The notes beneath the pieces were generated by a model. The model was not told the DNA's origin and searched no databases. It was given only the letters and a program-made list of their open reading frames with translations. Shown here piece by piece: positions 2,924 to 22,137 of a DNA stretch of 39,233 nt. The stretch is from IMG/VR virus record IMGVR_UViG_3300046558_000150, positions 1 to 39,233 of that record. One strand, written 5' to 3'. This DNA comes from a virus. A program made the translations under genes and the position numbers. Each line of letters opens with the position of its first letter. Position 1 is the stretch's first letter.

Positions 2924-3373
2924 ATGCGCGACTTGATCCATCACGCCTCGAAACTGGGAGTGAGAGTTCATTTCGCGCACATCGACGATGACCCCAACCT
3001 GCTCGGGTACTACTCCCCTAGGCACAAGGTCATCGTGGTCCGCCTCGGGATGACCTACGCACAGTCACGATGGGTCCTCGGCCACGAGTGCGGACACGCG
3101 CACCACGGACATCGGTGCACCGGGCCCCGCTCTCGAAGCTCAGCAGAGCGCCAAGCGAATGCGTACGCTGCCCGCCTGCTCATCGATCCGATCGAATACG
3201 AGCGGCTCGAGCGGATCAATCCCGATCAGCACTGGCTCGCTGACGAGTTCTCCGTGCACGTCGACGGCATCCACGCGTACGAGGAACACTGCCTCACGAG
3301 GCTCCGCGGCGTGACATACACCGGCGCCAAGATGGGCATCGGCCAGTGGGCGCATCGCGCAGTCCCCGCGTAG
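2924..3373 (+). CDS. immA: ImmA/IrrE-type zinc metallopeptidase
   Basis: A 149-residue protein of peptidase family M78. The catalytic motif HECGHAHHGH (HExxH) follows the hydrophobic strand VIVVRLGMTYAQSRWVLG, and QANAYAARLLID further on is the conserved downstream acidic/helix motif of ImmA. In ICEBs1 the homologue cleaves the ImmR repressor after DNA damage and releases the lytic or excision programme. It lies directly behind the repressor, with AGGGGG as ribosome binding site, so co-expression in the lysogen is expected. How it is activated is not visible. The family assignment is firm; the substrate is inferred from neighbourhood. Confidence 0.9.
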   Translation: MRDLIHHASKLGVRVHFAHIDDDPNLLGYYSPRHKVIVVRLGMTYAQSRWVLGHECGHAHHGHRCTGPRSRSSAERQANAYAARLLIDPIEYERLERINPDQHWLADEFSVHVDGIHAYEEHCLTRLRGVTYTGAKMGIGQWAHRAVPA

Positions 3374-3850: not shown

Positions 3851-4033
3851 ATGACTGAGGATGAGATTGCGGCCCTTCCTGATGGGGCAGTTCTTCGAGC
3901 CTCCAACGGAGACACGCTCACGATGGACCGGTATTCACCAAGGCCATGCATGCGCATCAGCGACGGGTCCTACCTCTTCCTCTACAACCTGCATCTCGAG
4001 TACGACCTCAGCGACCTTCGGCGTGAATCCTGA
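3851..4033 (+). CDS. hypothetical small protein upstream of integrase
   Basis: A 60-residue acidic protein beginning MTEDEIAALPDGAVLRA, with the look of a small beta-strand domain. GGGGAG precedes ATG 3851; a GTG at 3845 is also in frame and overlaps the previous stop. Its TGA overlaps the integrase ATG (TGATG), so it is translated together with the integrase. A role as a recombination accessory factor is possible but unproven. Confidence 0.65.
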   Translation: MTEDEIAALPDGAVLRASNGDTLTMDRYSPRPCMRISDGSYLFLYNLHLEYDLSDLRRES

Positions 4034-5253
4034 TGGCTAGTGTCGGGCACCGCATTCTCTCCACCGGAGAAGTCCGATGGCGGGTACAGGCTCGCGTCAG
4101 CGGAAAGGTCAAGCAGACGACCTTCGAGAACAAGGAGGGCGCCGATCAGTTCGCCGATCTCGTCGATAGGCACGGATGGGCCGCGGCCGATGAAGTACGA
4201 CTGCGGCGCATGGAACGCTCGAACGGTGTCCCCACGCTTCGCGAGTACACCGCCCGCTACCTAGACCCGTCGAGCGGCCTGCTCACTGGTATCGAGAAGG
4301 GAACCCGTGAGGGGTACGCGGCCGAAGCTGAGCGCTCTTTCCTGCCCCGCCTCGGCGAGCTCCCGATCGATGCAATCATGAAGCCCGACATCGGGTCATG
4401 GATCGCATGGCAGGAGACGCAGCCCGTCTGGCGCGACCGCAACAAGCCACCCGCGGAGCAGAAGCACGTCTCAGCGAAGACCGTGAAGAACTACCACGCG
4501 CTGCTGTCGGCGATCCTCAAGGCCGCGGTCGACGAGGGCATCCGCAAGGACAACCCCGCGTTCAAGATGCGCATCACTCGAGGTACGAAGCGCGAGAACG
4601 TGTTCCTCTCCCCCGGCGAGTTCTCGACCGTCCTGCATTTCATCCCCGAGCGCTACCAACGCCTCGTCCTGTTCCTCGCCGGCACCGGCCTGCGTTGGAG
4701 TGAGATGAGCGCACTGACGTGGGCAGACGTGAACCTGCACGGCAACCCGCCGACCGTGCGCGTCACGCGCGCGTGGAAGAAGTCCAAGGGCGGGCCCCTG
4801 CTCAAGTACCCGAAGACGTCGAAGTCACGACGGTCCGTCTCCCTGTTCCCAGACCTCGTGGCGATCATGGGCGAACCGGGCGCATCCGACGAATGGGTGT
4901 TCCCCGCGCCGCAGGGCGGTCACATGTGGCACGGCGCGTTCTACACGCGCATCTGGCTCACAGCGATCGCGAAAGCGTCCGACGCGGACGTATGCGCAGC
5001 GCTCGGGCTCGAGCCGCTGCGACGGAAGCCAACCGTGCACGACCTGCGGCACACTCACGCGTCCTGGCTGATCGCTCAGGGCATCCCACTCCCCTACATT
5101 CAGGCACGCCTCGGGCACGAATCGATCACCACCACAGTCGGCACATACGGGCACCTCGTGGCAGACGCGCACGACCAGATGGCGACGGCGATCGCTCTGA
5201 CGCTGACCGACGTCCGCAGGCCCTTTTCGCTAACCCAAGGAGACGATTCGTAA
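4033..5253 (+). CDS. int: tyrosine integrase
   Basis: A 406-residue site-specific recombinase. The N-terminal arm-binding region lies at residues about 1-60 (RVQARVSGKVKQTTFENKEG), the SAM-like core-binding domain at about 70-175, and the catalytic domain at about 190-390. Catalytic residues visible: Arg in TGLRWSEMSALTW, Lys in the following beta-hairpin region (KTSKSRR), His-x-x-Arg in HDLRHTHASW, His in LGHESITTT, and the nucleophile Tyr in VGTYGHL. Length and motif order are complete. It would integrate the phage at a bacterial attB, probably a tRNA gene given the core-like sequence upstream. It is co-translated with the preceding small gene. Expression is probably repressor-controlled from the 3446 promoter. 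Confidence 0.95.
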   Translation: MASVGHRILSTGEVRWRVQARVSGKVKQTTFENKEGADQFADLVDRHGWAAADEVRLRRMERSNGVPTLREYTARYLDPSSGLLTGIEKGTREGYAAEAERSFLPRLGELPIDAIMKPDIGSWIAWQETQPVWRDRNKPPAEQKHVSAKTVKNYHALLSAILKAAVDEGIRKDNPAFKMRITRGTKRENVFLSPGEFSTVLHFIPERYQRLVLFLAGTGLRWSEMSALTWADVNLHGNPPTVRVTRAWKKSKGGPLLKYPKTSKSRRSVSLFPDLVAIMGEPGASDEWVFPAPQGGHMWHGAFYTRIWLTAIAKASDADVCAALGLEPLRRKPTVHDLRHTHASWLIAQGIPLPYIQARLGHESITTTVGTYGHLVADAHDQMATAIALTLTDVRRPFSLTQGDDS

Positions 5254-5928: not shown

Positions 5929-5963
5929 AACCGAACGTCGGAAGGTGCTGGGAGGGTGAGGAA

Positions 5964-6488
5964 ATGAGCGATCTGCACATTCAGCCTCGACGCTACACGC
6001 CGACCACTGGCGAGGTGCGCGAGCAATACTGGGCGGCATCGGGTGACCGTCGACGTGGATCGGAGGCCTGGGGCGAGTTCGACCGGTGGCTGGCAGATCA
6101 CGATATGGAGGTCCGCGCACAGACACTTGTGCAGGCGCGCCAGATCGCAGAGGTTAGGGCTCCAGAGCCAGACCTGATGGACCGTCTCAAGGCTTCCCTC
6201 GCTCCTGCTGTCGATGCGCAGGACATCGCCGCCGAGACGATGGGCAACTGGGTCAAAGACATTGCGGACGATCGAACCGTAGTGCAGATCATCGTCCAGG
6301 CGATTGAGGTGGATCGTGCTGCTACCCGCTCCGTCGCCACATACCAGCAGATCAGCGATGCGGAAGAACGTCTTAGCGCTGGGGTGAATGAGTCGCGGTG
6401 GCCGTGCGGATGCCGTTACTCCTTCTACGAACTCACTCACCCGGACGAGGGGCACGTAGACGGTGACCACCGACCGGGCGGAGCATGA
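5964..6488 (+). CDS. hypothetical protein, first gene of accessory cassette
   Basis: A 174-residue soluble protein. Residues about 20-140 are largely helical (RGSEAWGEFDRWLADHDMEV, then alternating charged and hydrophobic helices). The C-terminus carries PCGCRYSFYELTHPDEGHVD, a possible metal-binding CxC..H..H cluster. GAGGGTGAGG precedes the ATG. The stop overlaps the next start (ATGATG), so it is coupled to a tiny CxxC gene and an RHH gene. Family not recognised. The cassette has its own promoter, operators and terminators, as moron-type insertions do. Confidence 0.75.
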   Translation: MSDLHIQPRRYTPTTGEVREQYWAASGDRRRGSEAWGEFDRWLADHDMEVRAQTLVQARQIAEVRAPEPDLMDRLKASLAPAVDAQDIAAETMGNWVKDIADDRTVVQIIVQAIEVDRAATRSVATYQQISDAEERLSAGVNESRWPCGCRYSFYELTHPDEGHVDGDHRPGGA

Positions 6489-11648: not shown

Positions 11649-12404
11649 TCAGCTCGGCCGAAGGTGTTCGTTCAGGAACGCGAGCACGCGCTGATGGTCG
11701 ACGGCGTTGTAGCTGTCGAAGTCGTGCCCCGAGGGCAGTGCGACGAGCTCCCTGTTCGTGGGATCGGCGGCGGCGAACGCTTCCGTCCACTGCGGGAGGC
11801 AGAGGGTGTCGGTGAGGCCGTAGAAGATCAGCATTGGGATGCCGGCGAGCTTCGCGGCGGCACGCATCGTGTGCGGGTTCTTCGTCGCGCCGAGGGCCGC
11901 TTCGTTGTACCCGCCCGCGTAGGCGGCGTTGACCGACGCCCCGTACCCTCCGCGGTTGTTCGCCCGGATGTCTTCCGGGTTGATGACCGGGATCACCATG
12001 ACGATCGCTTTCGGCTTGACCGTCGCCTGCGCGGCGTAGACGAGGCTGTTCAGCCCGCCCATGCTGTCACCGATGAGGGCGTAGTCAGCGTTCACGTCGG
12101 GCCGTGCGGCGAGGCGGGCGAGGTACCCACCCAGGCGGGTCACCGCGAGGTCGTTGCCCCACGTGAACACGCCGCCGTTGTCGCCCGCGATACCCGGGAA
12201 CACGCTGCTCACGGTGTTCGTGCGTGCGCCCTGGTTGCCGAGCGGGGCCAGGCAGTAGTCCGCCCTCGACCCGGCGCCGTGGACGTAGGAGACTCCTGCC
12301 ATCTCGGCGGCGTACGGGTACTTCGGGGAGATGTCGATGCACTGCTCGCCCGGGTACACCACGGGGGCGCCGGGGAGGCCTTCGTTGAGTCGCGTAGAGA
12401 TCAC
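11649..12404 (-). CDS. alpha/beta-hydrolase (esterase), tail- or lysis-associated
   Basis: A 251-residue protein starting at GTG 12404, overlapping the previous stop (GTGA). Nucleophile elbow GDSMGG at residues about 140-145; a likely acid in FYGLTDTLCLP and catalytic His in LPSGHDFDSYN, the order Ser-Asp-His of the fold. YVHGAGSRADYC near residue 50 looks like the oxyanion region. It lies between a minor tail gene and the lysis membrane genes, so it could be a virion esterase acting on wall or capsule, or a LysB-like enzyme. LysB normally acts on mycolate-bearing hosts; no evidence here that the host has mycolates. Confidence 0.75.
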   Translation of the reverse strand: MISTRLNEGLPGAPVVYPGEQCIDISPKYPYAAEMAGVSYVHGAGSRADYCLAPLGNQGARTNTVSSVFPGIAGDNGGVFTWGNDLAVTRLGGYLARLAARPDVNADYALIGDSMGGLNSLVYAAQATVKPKAIVMVIPVINPEDIRANNRGGYGASVNAAYAGGYNEAALGATKNPHTMRAAAKLAGIPMLIFYGLTDTLCLPQWTEAFAAADPTNRELVALPSGHDFDSYNAVDHQRVLAFLNEHLRPS

Positions 12405-12928
12405 GCAGTCACCACCTGAATCGTGTTGGGGTTGGTGTCGTCGCCCGAGGTGCGGGCGATTCCGGCCTGAAGGGCACCGCGGGCGATCCACACGCTGATC
12501 GTGTGGGTGCTGCCCGGGGTGAGGCCTCGGAGGCGACGTTCGACATACGCGGTCTGCCACACGTCCGCACCGACCGCGCTCGACTCGAGACGTGCGACCT
12601 CGACACCGTCGAGACGGATCGACGCGAACGCGCGGGAGCCCGCCACGCTCACGGCGAGGCGCATGATCGTCTTCACGACGACGGGACGCTCGCCGACGAC
12701 GAACGTGGTCAGCAGGCCAGGCACCTGCACGAGCGTGTCGGTGGCGTTGACCATCGGGTAGACGTGCTCGGCGTGGCCGATCTCATCCCCGCCACCACCG
12801 AGGACGTGCCATCGTGCGCCGTCGGAACGGTACAGCTCGGGCACGTCATCGGGGGCGTACAAGGTGTTCGGGTCCACGGTGCCGGCGGCGGGACGGTCGA
12901 CGTACCGGCCGGTGAGGATGGAGTTCAT
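12401..12928 (-). CDS. minor tail protein
   Basis: A 175-residue beta-rich protein. The N-terminus NSILTGRYVDRPAAGTVDPN with LYRSDGARWHVLG is the short motif often seen where tail spikes or appendages attach. The rest resembles a jelly-roll/carbohydrate-binding domain (FASIRLDGVEVARLESSAVG, then STHTISVWIARG). Probably an adhesin of the tail tip. Coupled to the esterase gene. Confidence 0.65.
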   Translation of the reverse strand: MNSILTGRYVDRPAAGTVDPNTLYAPDDVPELYRSDGARWHVLGGGGDEIGHAEHVYPMVNATDTLVQVPGLLTTFVVGERPVVVKTIMRLAVSVAGSRAFASIRLDGVEVARLESSAVGADVWQTAYVERRLRGLTPGSTHTISVWIARGALQAGIARTSGDDTNPNTIQVVTA

Positions 12929-12957: not shown

Positions 12958-13824
12958 TCAGAGGGCGGCTTTGAGGGCGGCGATCGTCTCCGCGGGGAGC
13001 TGCGCGAGCCGCTGCTTCACCCCGTCGAAGTCGTCCTTCAGCGCGGCGTCGATACCCGCCACAGCAGCAGCCGACAGCTGCCCTGCGATTGCTGCGGCCT
13101 GCGCGTCGGTGAGCTGCACGGTGCCGTTCTTCGACGCCTCGAGGATCGCCTTGAGCGAGTACGGCGAGACGACGTGCACGTAGTTCAGGTCAGCGCGGAT
13201 GACGGCGACCGCTGAGGCGATGTCCAAGTGCAGGTTGGCCACCGCATCGCTCGTGTTCGTCAGCCAGTCCGCAGCGCGACCGAAGATCGCACCCGCACCG
13301 CCCTGCTTGTTGGCGATGCTGTGTGTCCAGACCGCCTGCGCGATCTCTTCGGGTGTTGGCATGTCTTCCTCCTCAGGAATCGCGCCGCCTCCAGCGGCAG
13401 AGCCACCCATGCGGGCAGCCAGAAAAGCAACAGGGTCGACCTGTCCCGTATTCGAGTAGTGGACGTCGCCGGGAGTGATCTCGAGGTGCAGGTGAACGTC
13501 ACTCGCCGTACCCGTCCGCCCCATCACGCACAGAGGGTCACCCTCCCGAACGAACTGCCCCACCTTCACCAGCAGGCCCGCCGAGTGCAGCGACTTCGAG
13601 AAGAACCCGTCATGCTGTAGCCACACCTGAGTGCCACCGCCAGGCCACCCGGATGGCGTGCCAGCAACCTTCACCTGACCTGCCGCCACCGCCCGGATAA
13701 TGCTGAACGTGTGTGAGAAGTCGGCGCCCTTGTGGTTCTTTGAAGCGTTCGGGACATTGATGTTCCGAGGCCCGAACGCACTCGACACGTAGGGCTTGGT
13801 CTTCGATCCATTCGGCCACAACAC
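12958..13824 (-). CDS. endolysin, M23 metallopeptidase
   Basis: A 288-residue protein starting at GTG 13824 behind a perfect AGGAGG. Residues about 1-135 are a LytM/M23 peptidase: SSAFGPRN at the start, zinc ligands His and Asp in NHKGADFSH, and the HLHLEI motif, with IRAVAAGQVKVAG between. M23 enzymes cut peptide cross-bridges in peptidoglycan. Residues about 140-288 form a helical C-terminal region (EEIAQAVWTHSIAN, AAIAGQLSAAAVAGIDAALK) found on many actinophage lysins and perhaps used for multimerisation. No signal peptide, so a holin is needed; candidates lie 2-3 kb downstream. Confidence 0.9.
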   Translation of the reverse strand: MLWPNGSKTKPYVSSAFGPRNINVPNASKNHKGADFSHTFSIIRAVAAGQVKVAGTPSGWPGGGTQVWLQHDGFFSKSLHSAGLLVKVGQFVREGDPLCVMGRTGTASDVHLHLEITPGDVHYSNTGQVDPVAFLAARMGGSAAGGGAIPEEEDMPTPEEIAQAVWTHSIANKQGGAGAIFGRAADWLTNTSDAVANLHLDIASAVAVIRADLNYVHVVSPYSLKAILEASKNGTVQLTDAQAAAIAGQLSAAAVAGIDAALKDDFDGVKQRLAQLPAETIAALKAAL

Positions 13825-16608: not shown

Positions 16609-17439
16609 TTATCCGGCCGCGCCGGCCAAGTCATACCTACGGTTCACATCACTCGCTCGAAGATGCGCCGTGTTGACGGCTGCAGCCGTGGCGAACGACA
16701 CGTTGATGTCCTTCGCCCTGAGCAGGGGCACGAAGAGCCCGGGAATCGGCGGGTCAACTTCGTCACCATTGATCTGGTGCGAGATCTCGCCGCCACCCCA
16801 CTGGTAGGTGATATCCAGTTCAGGCACGTCGAGGACAGAGAGGAACAATGGCTGAGGAACACGCATGATCCCGTAATCCGCACCCAGCCGGATACACACC
16901 ACTGGCGGCATCCCGGCGTCACCACACATCGCCCGTACTGCGTCCGCTTCGGTGTCGGTAGTTGTGCGCACGTCAAGCTCCAGACCAACGACACCTTGTC
17001 GCGGCTCAGAAAGAACTACACCCGTGCGTCGCCCCTTCGGCCGCGCAACCACACCTGGAGTTGGGCGCAGAATCCGAACAGCCGACTCCCCACCCAGCAA
17101 GATTTTCACTGCGTTCTGAGGATCTAGCGGATTATGCATCCACGAGCTCGACACCGAAACAGTCACCGCAGCTGTAGGGGTGAACCCCAATGACTGTCCC
17201 GCAGCGTTGAACTGCTCCGCTCGGTAGGACACTGGGCGGTTGAACGGCACCTCGAAATCAATCCGTGTCAACGTGCCGCCCGTGGCGGCATCCACTGCGC
17301 CACGCATCTGCTGCTCGGTACCGCCAGACAACCGATACACCGTCACCGACGCCGTGCCCACGGTAAAGCTAGGGAAGAACACCTCCACCCGCGGGCATGG
17401 CGCCTCATCGACATAAGGCGTCAGAGTCGGAGCGCTCAT
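16609..17439 (-). CDS. distal tail-like minor tail protein
   Basis: A 276-residue beta-rich protein directly downstream of the tape-measure gene (ATGA overlap), the standard position of Dit-type proteins in siphophages. Strand-rich segments include VEVFFPSFTVGTASVTVYRL and LELDVRTTTDTEADAVRAMC. The C-terminus carries LFVPLLRAKDINVSFATAAA. No catalytic residues seen. Confidence 0.7.
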   Translation of the reverse strand: MSAPTLTPYVDEAPCPRVEVFFPSFTVGTASVTVYRLSGGTEQQMRGAVDAATGGTLTRIDFEVPFNRPVSYRAEQFNAAGQSLGFTPTAAVTVSVSSSWMHNPLDPQNAVKILLGGESAVRILRPTPGVVARPKGRRTGVVLSEPRQGVVGLELDVRTTTDTEADAVRAMCGDAGMPPVVCIRLGADYGIMRVPQPLFLSVLDVPELDITYQWGGGEISHQINGDEVDPPIPGLFVPLLRAKDINVSFATAAAVNTAHLRASDVNRRYDLAGAAG

Positions 17440-20309
17440 ACAGTCCTCACTCCCCTGCGCGTCGTCTGGGACCGCGAGTTGTCATATCCGACGATCTGCT
17501 CCTGCACGATCGCCCGAACAGGGTTGCCGTCCACGAGCATCGTGAACTCAGCCCCAGCAAGAGACACCGAGACGTCCGAGGAACTCAGCCCCTGAGTCGC
17601 CCCGGATGCCGATGGGCCCACCCATGACCCGGAGCGCAGAGACGCGCGGTATGCCTCGATACCAGCATGGCCACCAGCCGCATCGACTTCGCGCGCAGTG
17701 ATGACATGCTCACCTGGAGCGAGCATGCGGAGTTCAGAGTCGACACCCTTGGTGCCACGGCCGATGACAGGGCCACCCGTTGCCTGCCCGGGCGGTTTCA
17801 GAACCGTCCCCGCCCCCACCACCGTCGTCGAGACCGGAATATTGAGGGACTTCGGCAGGCTGTTGAACGCGTTGTTCAGATCCTGCAGGTTCCACTTTGC
17901 TTGAGCTGTCTCTACGAGCATTCGCGTGATGTGCTCAGGCGGGGTGTTGAAGATCTCGCCAGCGAGCGCGTTCACTTCGTCCGCGTTGTATCCGGCGGCG
18001 AGAGCAGCATCAACGAACGCCTGTCGTTGGCTCGCGAGCGTGCCAAGGTACTTCTGGGTTGCCTCGTCAGCGCTCATCGTGTTCAGGTCCTGCTGAAGCT
18101 GGGCGTCAGCAGCAGATATGGCTGCGGCTGCCACATCCGACAATGAAGCGGCATTCGCCGCACCAGAGACAGTCGCCTGATCGAGAGAGAGGATGAAACC
18201 ATCCAAGGTTCCGTTAGCTTCCTCGTACTGGTCCCTCTGTCTTTGAACCTCTTCAGAGACTCCCGACAAAGCGGTGAGCCACCTCGAGTTCGCCGTCACC
18301 GCGTCCTGTGCGATACCGTTCGCCTCATTGATCTGATCGATCAGGTCCGTCAGATCAGAGTGCAAGTCAGCGACGGCATCAGCCTGCTTGATGTAAGCCT
18401 CAGCGGCAGTGTCCGCCGCCTCCGCGGAGTCCTCCATCGCGAACGCGAGGAGAGCCGTCATGTCGATCTGGCCGTCTTTGGTGGTGACGTCCCGCTGCTG
18501 TGCGTCGGCTACCCGCACGAGCTCGTCGCGGTAGGGCTTCATCGCGTTGAGGAGATCGATCTGCTCGGACTTCGACAGCCCCATCTCTTCGGAGAGCATC
18601 CGGAAAGATCGGGCAGCGGCTGGCGCATCGGTCTTGGCGAGCTTTCCCATCTCCTCACCCATGGTGGTGAGGACCGCAGAGAGCTGGCTCGTTTCCCCCC
18701 GCAGCCCTCGAAGGAAGTCGTTGTGGGCGATGATGTCCAGGTTCTCCCGGAACTTCTCAGCCGACGACACTGCCTCGTTGAGACGGGACAAGAACGGCAC
18801 GGCGGAATCGCCTGCCTCGAAGAGCTCGGCTGAGGACTTCGCGTTCTTGAGGACGTTCTGGAACACCTCTGTCGAGGTGCGCAGCTTCTCCTGCGCCACG
18901 GACAGCCCGACGACAGCGGCCGTAGCGGCAATCATCGCGATCCCGTAAGGGCCCGTGAGGAACTGCCACATGGACGAGAGTGCCGCCTTCGACGAGGCCC
19001 CGGTGATGCTGAGCGTCTCGAGTGCGATCTTCAGCTCTACGAGCTTCGGAACTGCGAGAAGCGCGCTCCCGCCGAGAAGCGCCACCACCCCGACAGACGA
19101 CGTCAGAACTGCGATGACGCCCTGAACAGGGTCCGGCAGGTCAGCCATGAAACCCGAGAACGCCGCGACGGCATCCGCAGCGCCAGCAACGGCCGGGAGG
19201 AACACCTGGCCAAAGTCGATCGCGGCATCACGCACAGCGTTGCCGGCGATCTGGATCTTCGCCTCAGTCGTCTCGTATCGCTTCGCCGCTTCTTCCGCCA
19301 GAGCGGTGTTCTCGTCCCACGCCTCGGAACCAAGCTCGAGCGACTTGCGCAGCAGGTCTCCCGAGTTGGCCATCCCAAGCAGGGCCTGAGACACACGGAT
19401 GTCTGTCTGTCCGAGGTTCGAGAGAGTCTGGAAGACATCGCCGCCCTGAGCGTTGATTCGCCCGAGTCCTTCGACGAAGGTGGCGATCGCGTCGGCCGGA
19501 GCCTCTTTGAAAGCCTTCTGGAAGTCTGTGGAGGACATCCCGGCGACCTTGGCGAACTCGTCGAGCTTCTCGCCACCGGAGGAGACCGACATTGCGATGT
19601 CCGTCATGATGCGCGAGATAGCCGAGCCACCAGCCTCAGCTTCGATGCCCACCGATGCCAGTGCGTTGGCGAACCCGAGAACCTGAGCCTCGGTCAGGCC
19701 GACGACGGCTCCGGCGCCTGCGATTCGCTGAGCCATCTGGATGATGTCACGCTCAGTCGACGCTCCGTCGTTACCAAGCGCGACGAGAGCAGCGCCAAGG
19801 TTGTCGACGTCTTCGGGCGCGGTCTGCATGACGTTCATCAGCTGCGCGATCGACGTTGCGGCCTCGTCAGCGGACAGGTTCGTGGTCTCAGACAGGTCGA
19901 TCATCGTCTTGGTGAAGTCGACGACGTCCTGACGCTTGACGCCAAGCTGGCCCGCTGCCTCTGCGACCGCTGCGATCTCCTGGTGGGTAGCCGGGAGGGT
20001 CTGAGCGAGAGAGCGGAGCCCGTCCTCGAGCTCCGCCATCTGCTGCTCGTTGCCGTCAACTGTCTTGGTGACGCCCGCCCACGCCGACTCCCAGTCCAGA
20101 GCAGCCTTCACCGAGAGCGCCGTGACAGCAGTGAGTGCTGATCCGGTTAGGACAAGTCCCTGGCCGACGCGTTCGAATGCCTGCTTCTTCTGCTCGAGCT
20201 TCTCCGCTTCAGTGCCGACCGTCCGGACGGCACGCGCGGCGTCGAGCATGCCCTTCTCAAGGTCAGACACCTGTGCGGTGAGCTTGACTGATACAACCCT
20301 CTGCGCCAT
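17436..20309 (-). CDS. tape measure protein
   Basis: A 957-residue protein, the longest gene. Residues about 1-60 are a coiled start (VSDLEKGMLDAARAVRTVGT). About 75-330 is the TP901-type tape-measure core (ATHQEIAAVAEAAGQLGVKR, LSADEAATSIAQLMNVMQTA). Hydrophobic helices follow near 390-480 (GVIAVLTSSVGVVALLGGSA, GIAMIAATAAVVGLSVAQEK). At roughly 1.5 angstrom per residue the tail would be about 140 nm (inference). No peptidase or transglycosylase domain is evident. GGAGG precedes the ATG. The plus-strand lipoprotein gene begins only 42 bases upstream in the opposite direction. Confidence 0.93.
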   Translation of the reverse strand: MAQRVVSVKLTAQVSDLEKGMLDAARAVRTVGTEAEKLEQKKQAFERVGQGLVLTGSALTAVTALSVKAALDWESAWAGVTKTVDGNEQQMAELEDGLRSLAQTLPATHQEIAAVAEAAGQLGVKRQDVVDFTKTMIDLSETTNLSADEAATSIAQLMNVMQTAPEDVDNLGAALVALGNDGASTERDIIQMAQRIAGAGAVVGLTEAQVLGFANALASVGIEAEAGGSAISRIMTDIAMSVSSGGEKLDEFAKVAGMSSTDFQKAFKEAPADAIATFVEGLGRINAQGGDVFQTLSNLGQTDIRVSQALLGMANSGDLLRKSLELGSEAWDENTALAEEAAKRYETTEAKIQIAGNAVRDAAIDFGQVFLPAVAGAADAVAAFSGFMADLPDPVQGVIAVLTSSVGVVALLGGSALLAVPKLVELKIALETLSITGASSKAALSSMWQFLTGPYGIAMIAATAAVVGLSVAQEKLRTSTEVFQNVLKNAKSSAELFEAGDSAVPFLSRLNEAVSSAEKFRENLDIIAHNDFLRGLRGETSQLSAVLTTMGEEMGKLAKTDAPAAARSFRMLSEEMGLSKSEQIDLLNAMKPYRDELVRVADAQQRDVTTKDGQIDMTALLAFAMEDSAEAADTAAEAYIKQADAVADLHSDLTDLIDQINEANGIAQDAVTANSRWLTALSGVSEEVQRQRDQYEEANGTLDGFILSLDQATVSGAANAASLSDVAAAAISAADAQLQQDLNTMSADEATQKYLGTLASQRQAFVDAALAAGYNADEVNALAGEIFNTPPEHITRMLVETAQAKWNLQDLNNAFNSLPKSLNIPVSTTVVGAGTVLKPPGQATGGPVIGRGTKGVDSELRMLAPGEHVITAREVDAAGGHAGIEAYRASLRSGSWVGPSASGATQGLSSSDVSVSLAGAEFTMLVDGNPVRAIVQEQIVGYDNSRSQTTRRGVRTV

Positions 20310-20339
20310 TTGGAACCTCCGATGTCGCAGGTGCCGGGA

Positions 20340-20345
20340 TAAGAT
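20340..20345 (+). promoter_or_regulatory. -10 box of the leaderless lipoprotein gene
   Basis: TAAGAT ends six bases before ATG 20352, so the transcript would start at the start codon. A TTGGAA at 20310-20315 is too far (24 bp) for a standard -35, and no Shine-Dalgarno is seen. This is the spacing of leaderless actinobacterial genes. Confidence 0.55.
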
Positions 20346-20351
20346 CCGGGC

Positions 20352-20750
20352 ATGCGGAAGAAACTGATCGCGCTAGTAGGCGCAGGACTCGTGCTGACGG
20401 GGTGCGCTGCGGGCGTCAGCGCTGAGCCGACCCCGACTCCGACGCCATCAGCGGACCCGAACATCGCGGCCTGCGCTGACTTTGAGAGCACTTTCTTGGC
20501 GGGCGCTCTGGAGATGCCCGAGTACCTCGCTGACTGGGAGGCAACTCGCGATTCCATCGACGCGATCTCGCTGACCGCTCAAGGGGATGTGAAGACCCGG
20601 ATTCAGACCTTCGTCTCGAACTGGCCCGAGATGGGTGACTTCTTCATCTGGCATGAGTTCGACGAATCGAACCGCATGCTCGGCGATATCGAGCGAGCAT
20701 GCGCGGCGTCAGGCGCCGACATCGCAGTGCAGCTCACGACCAGCGACTAG
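20352..20750 (+). CDS. secreted lipoprotein (moron) antisense to the late operon
   Basis: A 132-residue protein with a complete lipoprotein signal: basic MRKKL, a hydrophobic core (IALVGAGLVLTG) and Cys18 in a LTGC lipobox. A Pro/Thr linker (PTPTPTPSADP) leads to an acidic helical domain (residues about 40-130) with two further Cys. It is the only plus-strand gene inside the minus-strand structural operon, between the tail chaperone and the tape-measure gene. It has its own -10 box and no leader. Its stop TAG shares the palindrome CTAG with the stop of the convergent chaperone gene. Such genes are usually prophage-expressed and alter the host surface. Superinfection exclusion is the leading guess; the family is not recognised. 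Confidence 0.85.
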   Translation: MRKKLIALVGAGLVLTGCAAGVSAEPTPTPTPSADPNIAACADFESTFLAGALEMPEYLADWEATRDSIDAISLTAQGDVKTRIQTFVSNWPEMGDFFIWHEFDESNRMLGDIERACAASGADIAVQLTTSD

Positions 20751-21555
20751 TCCTTCATCTCGACGCGCCACAACGTGTCGTGCATGGCTTCCTTGCCCCA
20801 ACGTTTCTCGTAGGCATCCTGCGTCTTGCGCAGCGCCTTTCCGGCGAAGTCGGTGATCGGAAGCGGGACCGTGAACGCGTCCTTGTTCTTGGGGTCCGTT
20901 GCGTCGGAGATCAGGACGCCGTGACTTCCGCGGGGCGCTTTCTCCGCGCGCCGCGAAGCAAGCAACCGAGCTACCTCCAGCGGCGTGAACCGCGACTCCG
21001 TGACAGACACCGAGATCACGTTCCCACCAGCGTCTAGGGTCACGGTGCGCGGCGTCCACCCGTGCAACTCACGGATGGTGACATGAAGCTCTCGGGCTAG
21101 CTGGGCTTCTTCTTCCGCGAGCCCGGTGAGGCTTTTCCCGCGTCGACGACCAGCCGTTCGGGGGCTCGCTCGTGTGCCGCCCACATTGACGCCGTAACGT
21201 CGTCCAGGCCGGTCTTCGTCAGCCGCGCGTACACCTTCGGCCACACCGAATAGTCGTTGCCCTTGGCGTCCGTCCGGATGAGGCTGACGACCTTGTCGCC
21301 GTCGATCAGGACGACGTCTGTATAGGCCGCGGCGACAGCATCGACGTTGTAGCCGAGGTTCAGGTCCTGGCGAATGTCGGGGCGTGGTGGGTGCTTCAGC
21401 GTCAGCGTGCGCCAGTCTGTGCCCGACATCGGCATGTACCGGACGCCCACCATGCGCTTTCCGAGCTTGACGTCTACGAGCTCGGGTTCTCGGTTCGCGA
21501 TCAGGTCGTCTGCTTCTGCGAGCAGCGCGTCGAGATCGAAGTCTTCGTTGTTCAT
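20747..21555 (-). CDS. tail assembly chaperone, long -1 frameshift form
   Basis: Translation starts as for the short chaperone, slips back one base on GGGAAAA (minus strand, 21139-21133), and continues in the second frame (SLTGLAEEEAQLARELHVTI and onward) to TAG at 20747. The fused protein is about 269 residues; the extension is helical and ends EAMHDTLWRVEMKD. In siphophages this GT-type product binds the tape measure and recruits tail tube subunits. The second frame has no convincing start of its own. Its stop codon overlaps that of the lipoprotein gene. Confidence 0.85.
21097..21555 (-). CDS. tail assembly chaperone, short (G-type) form
   Basis: A 152-residue acidic protein (NNEDFDLDALLAEADDLIAN, then SVWPKVYARLTKTGLDDVTA) located between the major tail and tape-measure genes, as expected for gpG. 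ATG 21555 is preferred to GTG 21561 because GAGGTGAG precedes it. It ends SPGSRKKKPS shortly after the slip site. It would coat the tape measure during tail assembly and is absent from virions. Confidence 0.85.
   Translation of the reverse strand: MNNEDFDLDALLAEADDLIANREPELVDVKLGKRMVGVRYMPMSGTDWRTLTLKHPPRPDIRQDLNLGYNVDAVAAAYTDVVLIDGDKVVSLIRTDAKGNDYSVWPKVYARLTKTGLDDVTASMWAAHERAPERLVVDAGKASPGSRKKKPS
21133..21139 (-). promoter_or_regulatory. -1 ribosomal frameshift site GGGAAAA
   Basis: On the minus strand the zero frame reads GCG GGA AAA GCC; the X-XXY-YYZ heptamer G GGA AAA permits a -1 slip to GGG AAA. Sixteen codons later both frames remain coherent, the short one ending at 21097. This is the conserved tail chaperone recoding signal of siphophages. 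Confidence 0.9.
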
Positions 21556-21590
21556 TCTCACCTCTCACCGTGTTCTCACCAGAAGGAAGA

Positions 21591-21630: not shown

Positions 21631-22137
21631 TTACGCGACGATCGCGGACTCGAGGAGGATCTCTCCGGTGATCTCGGGGATCATCTGCTTCATCAGCTCG
21701 GTGTTCGCGGTCGGGGGCACGTCCGTTGACGTTCCGATGCGGGCCGGGATGATCGCGTTCACGATGTCGCCGGCGGCGAAGGTGTGACCGTTCGGGTAGC
21801 CGAGGATGTGCACGAACGCTCCGGCGGTGCCCTTCGCGCCGAGGACGAGCTCGGCGTCGGTCGGCTCCTCACGGTTGTAGACGTAGCGAGTCGTAAGCGT
21901 GAAGTCCTTCGTGCCCTCGAGCTTGAGCGCCTGTGCCAGCGTGTAGCGGCTTGAGGTGATCGAGTTGATCGTCACGGCGAGGTCGAAGCCGTCGCCGGAC
22001 AGGCCGTAGGTCAGGCGCTTGTTCGCGATGTTGTTGACATCGGCGACCGCCAGGGGTCCGCCGTCGTAGCCGGGGACCCACATGACGATGCCGTTGCCAT
22101 CGGAGGCAGTACCTGCCTGTACGGGTTCGTTTGCCAT
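21631..22137 (-). CDS. major tail (tube) protein
   Basis: A 168-residue protein: MANEPVQAGTASDGNGIVMW at the start, a beta-rich body (LTYGLSGDGFDLAVTINSIT, FTLTTRYVYNREEPTDAELV) and IPEITGEILLESAIVA at the end. This fits the tail tube fold family and the position between terminator/completion genes and the chaperones. Hairpins on both sides of the gene suggest separate control of a high-level message. Confidence 0.85.
   Translation of the reverse strand: MANEPVQAGTASDGNGIVMWVPGYDGGPLAVADVNNIANKRLTYGLSGDGFDLAVTINSITSSRYTLAQALKLEGTKDFTLTTRYVYNREEPTDAELVLGAKGTAGAFVHILGYPNGHTFAAGDIVNAIIPARIGTSTDVPPTANTELMKQMIPEITGEILLESAIVA

Follow-up and report, generated by a model that had tools for sequence, protein, structure and literature searches.

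Genomic context of the lipoprotein gene

The window analysed here, a 39.2-kb virus record (IMGVR_UViG_3300046558_000150; 39,233 nt), has as its closest relative found a prophage in Microbacterium sp. Leaf320, to which it is 95.3% identical over 13 kb. Genome analysis led to a tyrosine integrase at 4033-5253 on the plus strand, which marks a temperate phage, and to an IrrE/ImmA-like metallopeptidase of the lysogeny region at 2924-3373 on the same strand. Judged from these two genes the phage is temperate, in line with the lysogen-forming phage of the original prediction, and an integrase is also present in 33 of the 36 related contigs. The tail genes lie on the minus strand. The tail tube protein (Phage_TTP_16) is located at 21631-22137 and the tail assembly chaperone gpG at 21097-21561, between the tail tube gene and the tape measure. 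The gpT part (20747-21139) is joined to it by a -1 frameshift at the slippery sequence GGGAAAA (21139-21133), and the resulting 271-aa gpGT fusion ends in ...RVEMKD. The tape-measure gene at 17436-20309 encodes a 957-aa protein that matches PhageMin_Tail (5.9e-20) and the PHROG tape-measure family (1.2e-145). An endolysin-like gene is found at 12958-13824, and a late-strand gene near it (11649-12560) presents weak matches to alpha/beta-hydrolases of the esterase-like kind.

Between the chaperone and tape-measure genes (hereafter the slot) lies a plus-strand gene, antisense to the late operon, which starts with ATG at 20352, ends at 20750 and encodes a lipoprotein of 132 aa. It had been placed at 20310-20750; the gene is real and adjoins the tape-measure gene as claimed, but position 20310 is the edge of the intergenic region. 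The further claim that it is the only plus-strand gene between 7.6 and 39 kb is likely right, as the few other plus-strand ORFs that a codon-position GC screen returned in that interval are likely shadows of the minus-strand genes they overlap.

In the 42 bp that precede the start of the tape measure lie both the Shine-Dalgarno sequence of the tape-measure gene (GGAGG on the minus strand, CCTCC on the plus strand, 20316-20320) and, downstream of it on the plus strand, a putative antisense promoter. The latter consists of the -10 hexamer TAAGAT at 20340-20345, separated from the ATG by the 6-nt spacer CCGGGC (20346-20351). No Shine-Dalgarno-like motif was found for the lipoprotein gene, so that the arrangement first described, TAAGAT six bases before the ATG and no ribosome-binding site, is exact. 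The two marks by which a leaderless gene is recognized in sequence, a -10 box that ends 6-7 nt upstream of the ATG and the absence of a Shine-Dalgarno, are thus both present. A search for a TTGACA-type -35 element, or a sigma-70 promoter with such a box, was negative for this gene. At the other end, the tetranucleotide CTAG (20747-20750) provides the overlapping stops of the two convergent genes, with gpGT ending at 20747 and the lipoprotein gene at 20750, as had been noticed. No T-tailed intrinsic terminator was found near the gene in a scan limited to that terminator type. An own terminator, which is one criterion of a moron, is not essential for a convergent gene.

The predicted lipoprotein and its relatives

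The full lipobox signal reported for this ORF is indeed present. The N-terminus reads MRKKLIALVGAGLVLTGC, followed past the cleavage point by AAG..., and comprises a basic n-region, a hydrophobic core and the lipobox LTGC. The signal itself is MRKKLIALVGAGLVLTG, with Cys18 as the predicted site of lipidation, and the residues after MRKKLIALVGAGLVLTGC begin AAGVSAEPTPTPTPSADPNIAACADF. Past the signal there is a linker rich in P, T and S and then a mature domain of about 95 aa, which appears helical in a low-confidence single-sequence AlphaFold2 model (pLDDT 55.7). Compared with the Leaf320 prophage, the gene differs at 4 of 399 positions, all of them synonymous third positions; these changes are few, and they give a hint of purifying selection on the protein.

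Full-length homologues were identified in three other Microbacterium genomes (L029, L157 and L158). The homologue of L029 is antisense and occupies the same slot in another prophage, and those of L157 and L158 lie on Microbacterium chromosomes, away from phage tail genes. Both chromosomal copies have TACGCT 7 nt before the ATG, which indicates that the leaderless design travels with the lipoprotein family. Genes identified nearby by eye, one for a HigA-like antitoxin (L175) and one that may be PIN-like (L176), suggest genomic islands.

Beyond these relatives, no match above chance was obtained among 50,697 phage records, and no Pfam family matched at an E-value of 1 or better, the Ltp model (Lipoprotein_Ltp) included. 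Searches against PHROG gave weak matches alone (E-value 0.016 and worse) to RNA ligase, Cor and spanin families, partly of the signal-peptide type. Thirteen weak matches to staphylococcal phages (E-value 0.08 and worse) were judged to be due to chance. The slot lipoprotein of L003 matches at the N-terminus, but its mature domain aligns poorly; signal peptide aside, we treat it as another protein or, at most, a very distant relative.

An antisense slot in related phages

Related loci were gathered through the N-terminus of the tape-measure protein, among viral contigs, within the genus and within the order, and the gap before the tape-measure start was inspected in each. At many of them an antisense ORF runs from a start some 42 bp away from the tape-measure ATG to the chaperone stop. 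Counting loci where the start of the tape measure is well placed and the upstream sequence long enough, we find somewhat fewer than half to be occupied. The 35 slot proteins fall into 21 sequence clusters by Blast, and they are small, membrane-anchored and mutually unrelated. As assigned by a simple hydrophobicity script and not by a trained predictor, the occupants are lipoproteins (the window, L003, L029, L047, L058 and L063), proteins with one TM helix (L046, L084, L091, L119 and L120) and proteins with two or three (L006, L007, L054, L064, L073, L083, L094, L097, L106, L109, L111, L115 and others). Pfam recognized DUF732 in L047 and, below its curated cut-offs, a DUF4190-like segment in L006 and a DUF2510-like segment at the N-terminus of L119. 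We therefore take the window gene to be one occupant of a widespread slot whose contents are unrelated to each other.

Many slot products are small proteins with one to three TM helices, as would be expected of holin-type lysis proteins or lysis inhibitors. We consider such a role highly improbable. Lipoproteins with soluble domains fill the same slot, the genes run antisense to late transcription at the very time when lysis genes must be expressed, and the window has its endolysin-like gene elsewhere (12958-13824).

A slot gene can also be recognized in Microbacterium phage Footloose, where gene 15, like the window gene, lies on the reverse strand between the chaperone and the tape measure and shares a 4-nt stop overlap with the chaperone gene. 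It encodes a 56-aa protein with two TM helices, annotated as hypothetical and unrelated in sequence to the window lipoprotein, and has TAAAGT 7 nt before its ATG. Weak matches to this protein in Microbacterium genomes (E-value 0.001-0.01) lay inside longer ORFs and were set aside. Gene 15 is separated from the tape measure by an inserted HNH endonuclease gene, Footloose gene 16 (L039, 2337-2933), so that a homing-type gene has been drawn to this gap as well.

The promoter design is shared by slot genes that have no sequence in common. Of 26 distinct slot genes, whose start codons were picked by position if several were possible, 21 have the pattern TANNNT at a distance of 6 or 7 nt upstream of the ATG, compared with 10 of 2363 control antisense ATGs from the same loci; at other offsets of up to 19 nt it occurs once among the 26. 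This is far above chance, and the claim that the window gene is leaderless agrees with a promoter placed for a leaderless mRNA whose design is conserved across unrelated occupants. A clean TANNNT at either distance is missing from 5 of the 26. It is also missing from the order-level slot genes L131, L133, L137-L139, L145, L146 and L150, from which it follows that the design is strongest close to Microbacterium.

Leaderless position and membrane anchoring go together in the slot. Antisense ORFs that combine a leaderless start with a hydrophobic segment (lipobox or TM) number 25 in 72 kb of slot sequence (0.35 per kb) and 7 in 770 kb elsewhere (0.009 per kb). Two of these seven are themselves of slot type, namely Footloose gp15, displaced by the HNH gene, and an ORF of L118 homologous to the slot gene of L120. 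Put otherwise, 25 of the 26 leaderless antisense ORFs in the slot are membrane-anchored, as against 7 of 30 elsewhere (Fisher p 1.4e-8), with counts that are not fully independent, as some loci are related and a 60% 16-mer filter let through a few near-duplicates (L006/L060/L062 and L073/L075).

Exchange of the slot contents

Pairwise comparisons point to a cassette that is replaced between stable borders. In L003 and L073 the flank that reaches to the chaperone stop is 86.6% identical and the one that begins with the first base of the tape measure 83.7% identical, and between these borders their slots are completely different, with a lipoprotein in one and a two-TM protein in the other. In the pairs L111/L117 and L094/L109 the slot genes are different or diverged, and homology is back 44-50 bp before the tape-measure start. 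Occupied and empty slots also alternate between homologous flanks, with 75% and 82% identity for L083 (occupied) and L027 (empty) and about 67-71% for L029/L026 and L054/L025. Since the flanks stay alike while the contents swap or vanish, the slot gene can be classified from sequence as a moron, inserted between genes that are adjacent in relatives. A further moron criterion, an own promoter independent of the surrounding operon, is present as far as sequence can tell in the form of the conserved TANNNT on the opposite strand. Of the original description as a lipoprotein moron, both words hold, the second through clean presence/absence and replacement between homologous flanks, and the likeness to Ltp stands as an analogy.

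The position between chaperone and tape measure could be that of a component of the virion or of tail assembly whose gene happens to face the other way. We regard this as extremely improbable, given a strand opposite to the late operon, an own promoter, a secretion signal with lipobox, and products that show no relationship from phage to phage and that many close relatives lack. A conserved virion protein is specifically unlikely from the opposite strand and the presence/absence polymorphism.

It might also be the antisense promoter or transcript itself that matters, dampening leaky late transcription at the chaperone in the lysogen, with the proteins secondary. The promoter stays beside the tape-measure start while the ORF swaps, and flank homology resumes 40-50 bp before that start in L094/L109 and L111/L117, which would suit such a role. 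A pure antisense RNA would, however, show neither membrane anchors in 25 of 26 slot ORFs nor exclusively synonymous changes between the window and Leaf320, and many relatives do without the cassette; we find this explanation improbable.

The slot family does not clearly follow the type of tape measure, and tape-measure identity does not predict it. The window and L029 share a slot family and have divergent tape measures, and L003 and L073 have different slot proteins next to tape-measure N-termini that are 95-97% identical in protein. The tape measures of the latter two differ mainly at residues 400-600, where identity falls to 45-66% from about 96% in the preceding 400 residues. Presence of an integrase does not discriminate either, as it is found in 33 of the 36 contigs, with or without a slot gene.

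Comparison with known exclusion and defence proteins

Three membrane proteins, HK97 gp15, Ltp and Sie2009, prevent long-tailed phages from injecting their DNA (PMC10883804). By position, gp15, the superinfection exclusion protein of Escherichia phage HK97, is a closer precedent than Ltp. Like the window gene, it encodes a small membrane-anchored product and sits exactly between a -1 frameshifted chaperone gene and the tape-measure gene. It differs in running with the late genes and having a terminator of its own, whereas the window gene is read in the antisense direction, converges with the chaperone gene, is preceded by a leaderless promoter and is devoid of a terminator-like site. Also, gp15 has a TM helix, while the window protein has a predicted lipid anchor and matches nothing significantly in Pfam or PHROG. 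The block by gp15 is overcome by replacing the tail tube and tape measure (PMC10883804; PMC3952083).

Ltp of Streptococcus thermophilus phage TP-J34 resembles the window protein as a prophage-encoded surface lipoprotein of a Gram-positive host. It blocks DNA injection (PMC3952083; PMC10883804) and is overcome by changes in the tape measure (PMC10883804; PMC3952083). A lipobox signal peptide and a predicted surface lipid anchor, a feature of Ltp-type exclusion lipoproteins, are present in the window protein. The ltp gene belongs to the lysogeny module (PMC3952083), whereas the window gene is in the tail region; the window protein lacks a match to the Ltp family of Pfam, and the poor model (pLDDT 55.7) precludes a comparison of folds. 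More generally, no known exclusion protein was matched in sequence by the Pfam and PHROG searches or, with confidence, in structure by the AlphaFold2 model.

Two further prophage or host defence proteins are tied to the tape-measure protein, as is proposed here for the slot products. SNIPE is a membrane-bound defence nuclease that contacts the tape-measure protein during injection (PMC13190303), and Tab of the P. aeruginosa prophage JBD26 is a moron within the late operon linked to the tape-measure protein (PMC10884400). Unlike the slot genes, neither is leaderless and antisense, and Tab, encoded between the terminase genes, acts on the assembly of virions.

Putative function of the slot genes

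In actinobacteria it is common for transcripts to start at the start codon itself. Given the distance of 6-7 nt between the -10 box and the ATG, the slot mRNA would begin at or next to the ATG and be made and read in leaderless fashion by the host RNA polymerase and ribosomes. Because it has its own promoter and is oriented against the late operon, the gene could be transcribed with the late genes off, and we infer that it is active in the lysogen, where the late operon is silent. The product would be exported and lipid-anchored on the outer face of the cytoplasmic membrane, and there most likely interfere with DNA entry of superinfecting siphoviruses, the target probably being the tape-measure protein of the incoming phage or its host membrane partner. 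In the lytic cycle, the slot gene would be traversed by convergent late transcription, and its silencing in this way, as originally proposed, is a reasonable expectation. What the sequences show is the gene with its signal peptide, the geometry of the promoter, the exchange of the cassette and membrane anchors in nearly all slot products; each of the steps above, from leaderless translation and lysogenic expression to exclusion, the tape-measure target and silencing, is inferred.

For this exchangeable antisense moron slot of temperate actinobacterial phages, we somewhat favour a reading in which its membrane proteins are expressed by the prophage and most likely exclude superinfecting siphoviruses, in line with the original prediction. 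Exclusion is preferred because gp15, Ltp and Sie2009 all block injection and gp15 shares the position between chaperone and tape measure.

The main rival, which we hold to be unlikely though worth serious attention, is lysogenic conversion without phage exclusion, in which host-derived membrane proteins would alter the lysogen in its envelope properties, its tolerance of stress or its binding of nutrients. A host-surface role of some other kind is possible in view of the chromosomal homologues and of slot proteins resembling the host families DUF732 (L047), DUF4190 (L006) and DUF2510 (the N-terminus of L119), and the chromosomal relatives in L157 and L158 share the leaderless -10 (TACGCT-N7-ATG). 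Yet exclusion proteins can be host-derived too, which weakens the evidence from host families; what unites the slot contents is small size and membrane anchoring and not a metabolic theme, and the position beside the tape-measure gene parallels that of HK97 gp15.

Within the preferred reading, exclusion from an exchangeable slot, a more specific version is tentative and somewhat doubtful as a whole: a dedicated antisense site next to the tape measure, with a lysogeny-active leaderless promoter lodged in the tape-measure leader, would receive interchangeable, unrelated exclusion proteins and be switched off by the late transcript on induction. If true, this would be a phage locus for exclusion cassettes, similar to hotspots of anti-CRISPR or defence genes. 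Each single element, whether moron, exclusion lipoprotein or leaderless gene, is already known. An antisense slot for leaderless membrane proteins between chaperone and tape measure, common to many phages, is not described in the open-access literature searched, and the portions consulted of genome surveys of Microbacterium and Arthrobacter phages make no mention of an antisense gene at this place. Were exclusion the function, position and promoter alone could flag candidate exclusion genes in actinobacterial prophages without sequence similarity; the 35 proteins in 21 clusters are such candidates, nearly all of them without known function. The blocking of genome injection by membrane proteins would then become directly testable in Gram-positive high-GC hosts, small reverse ORFs left hypothetical or missed in phage annotations would be explained, and the choice of phages against lysogenic actinobacteria would be concerned as well.

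Other leaderless ORFs and repeats

The leaderless antisense ORF of L118, homologous to the slot protein of L120, is located in the late operon, roughly 2.7 kb upstream of where the tape measure starts, and there may be a second insertion site in that operon. Leaderless antisense ORFs with N-terminal membrane segments were also observed downstream of the tape measure and far from the slot in L005 (+5986) and L006 (+7735). In L003, a 30-bp inverted repeat (CGAAGCCCCCAGC..GCTGGGGGCTTCG) lies at about 5930-5970, between the tape-measure start and the slot promoter. Finally, the -10 box of L119, TAGAAT, sits in the loop of a GCCCCC/GGGGGC repeat.
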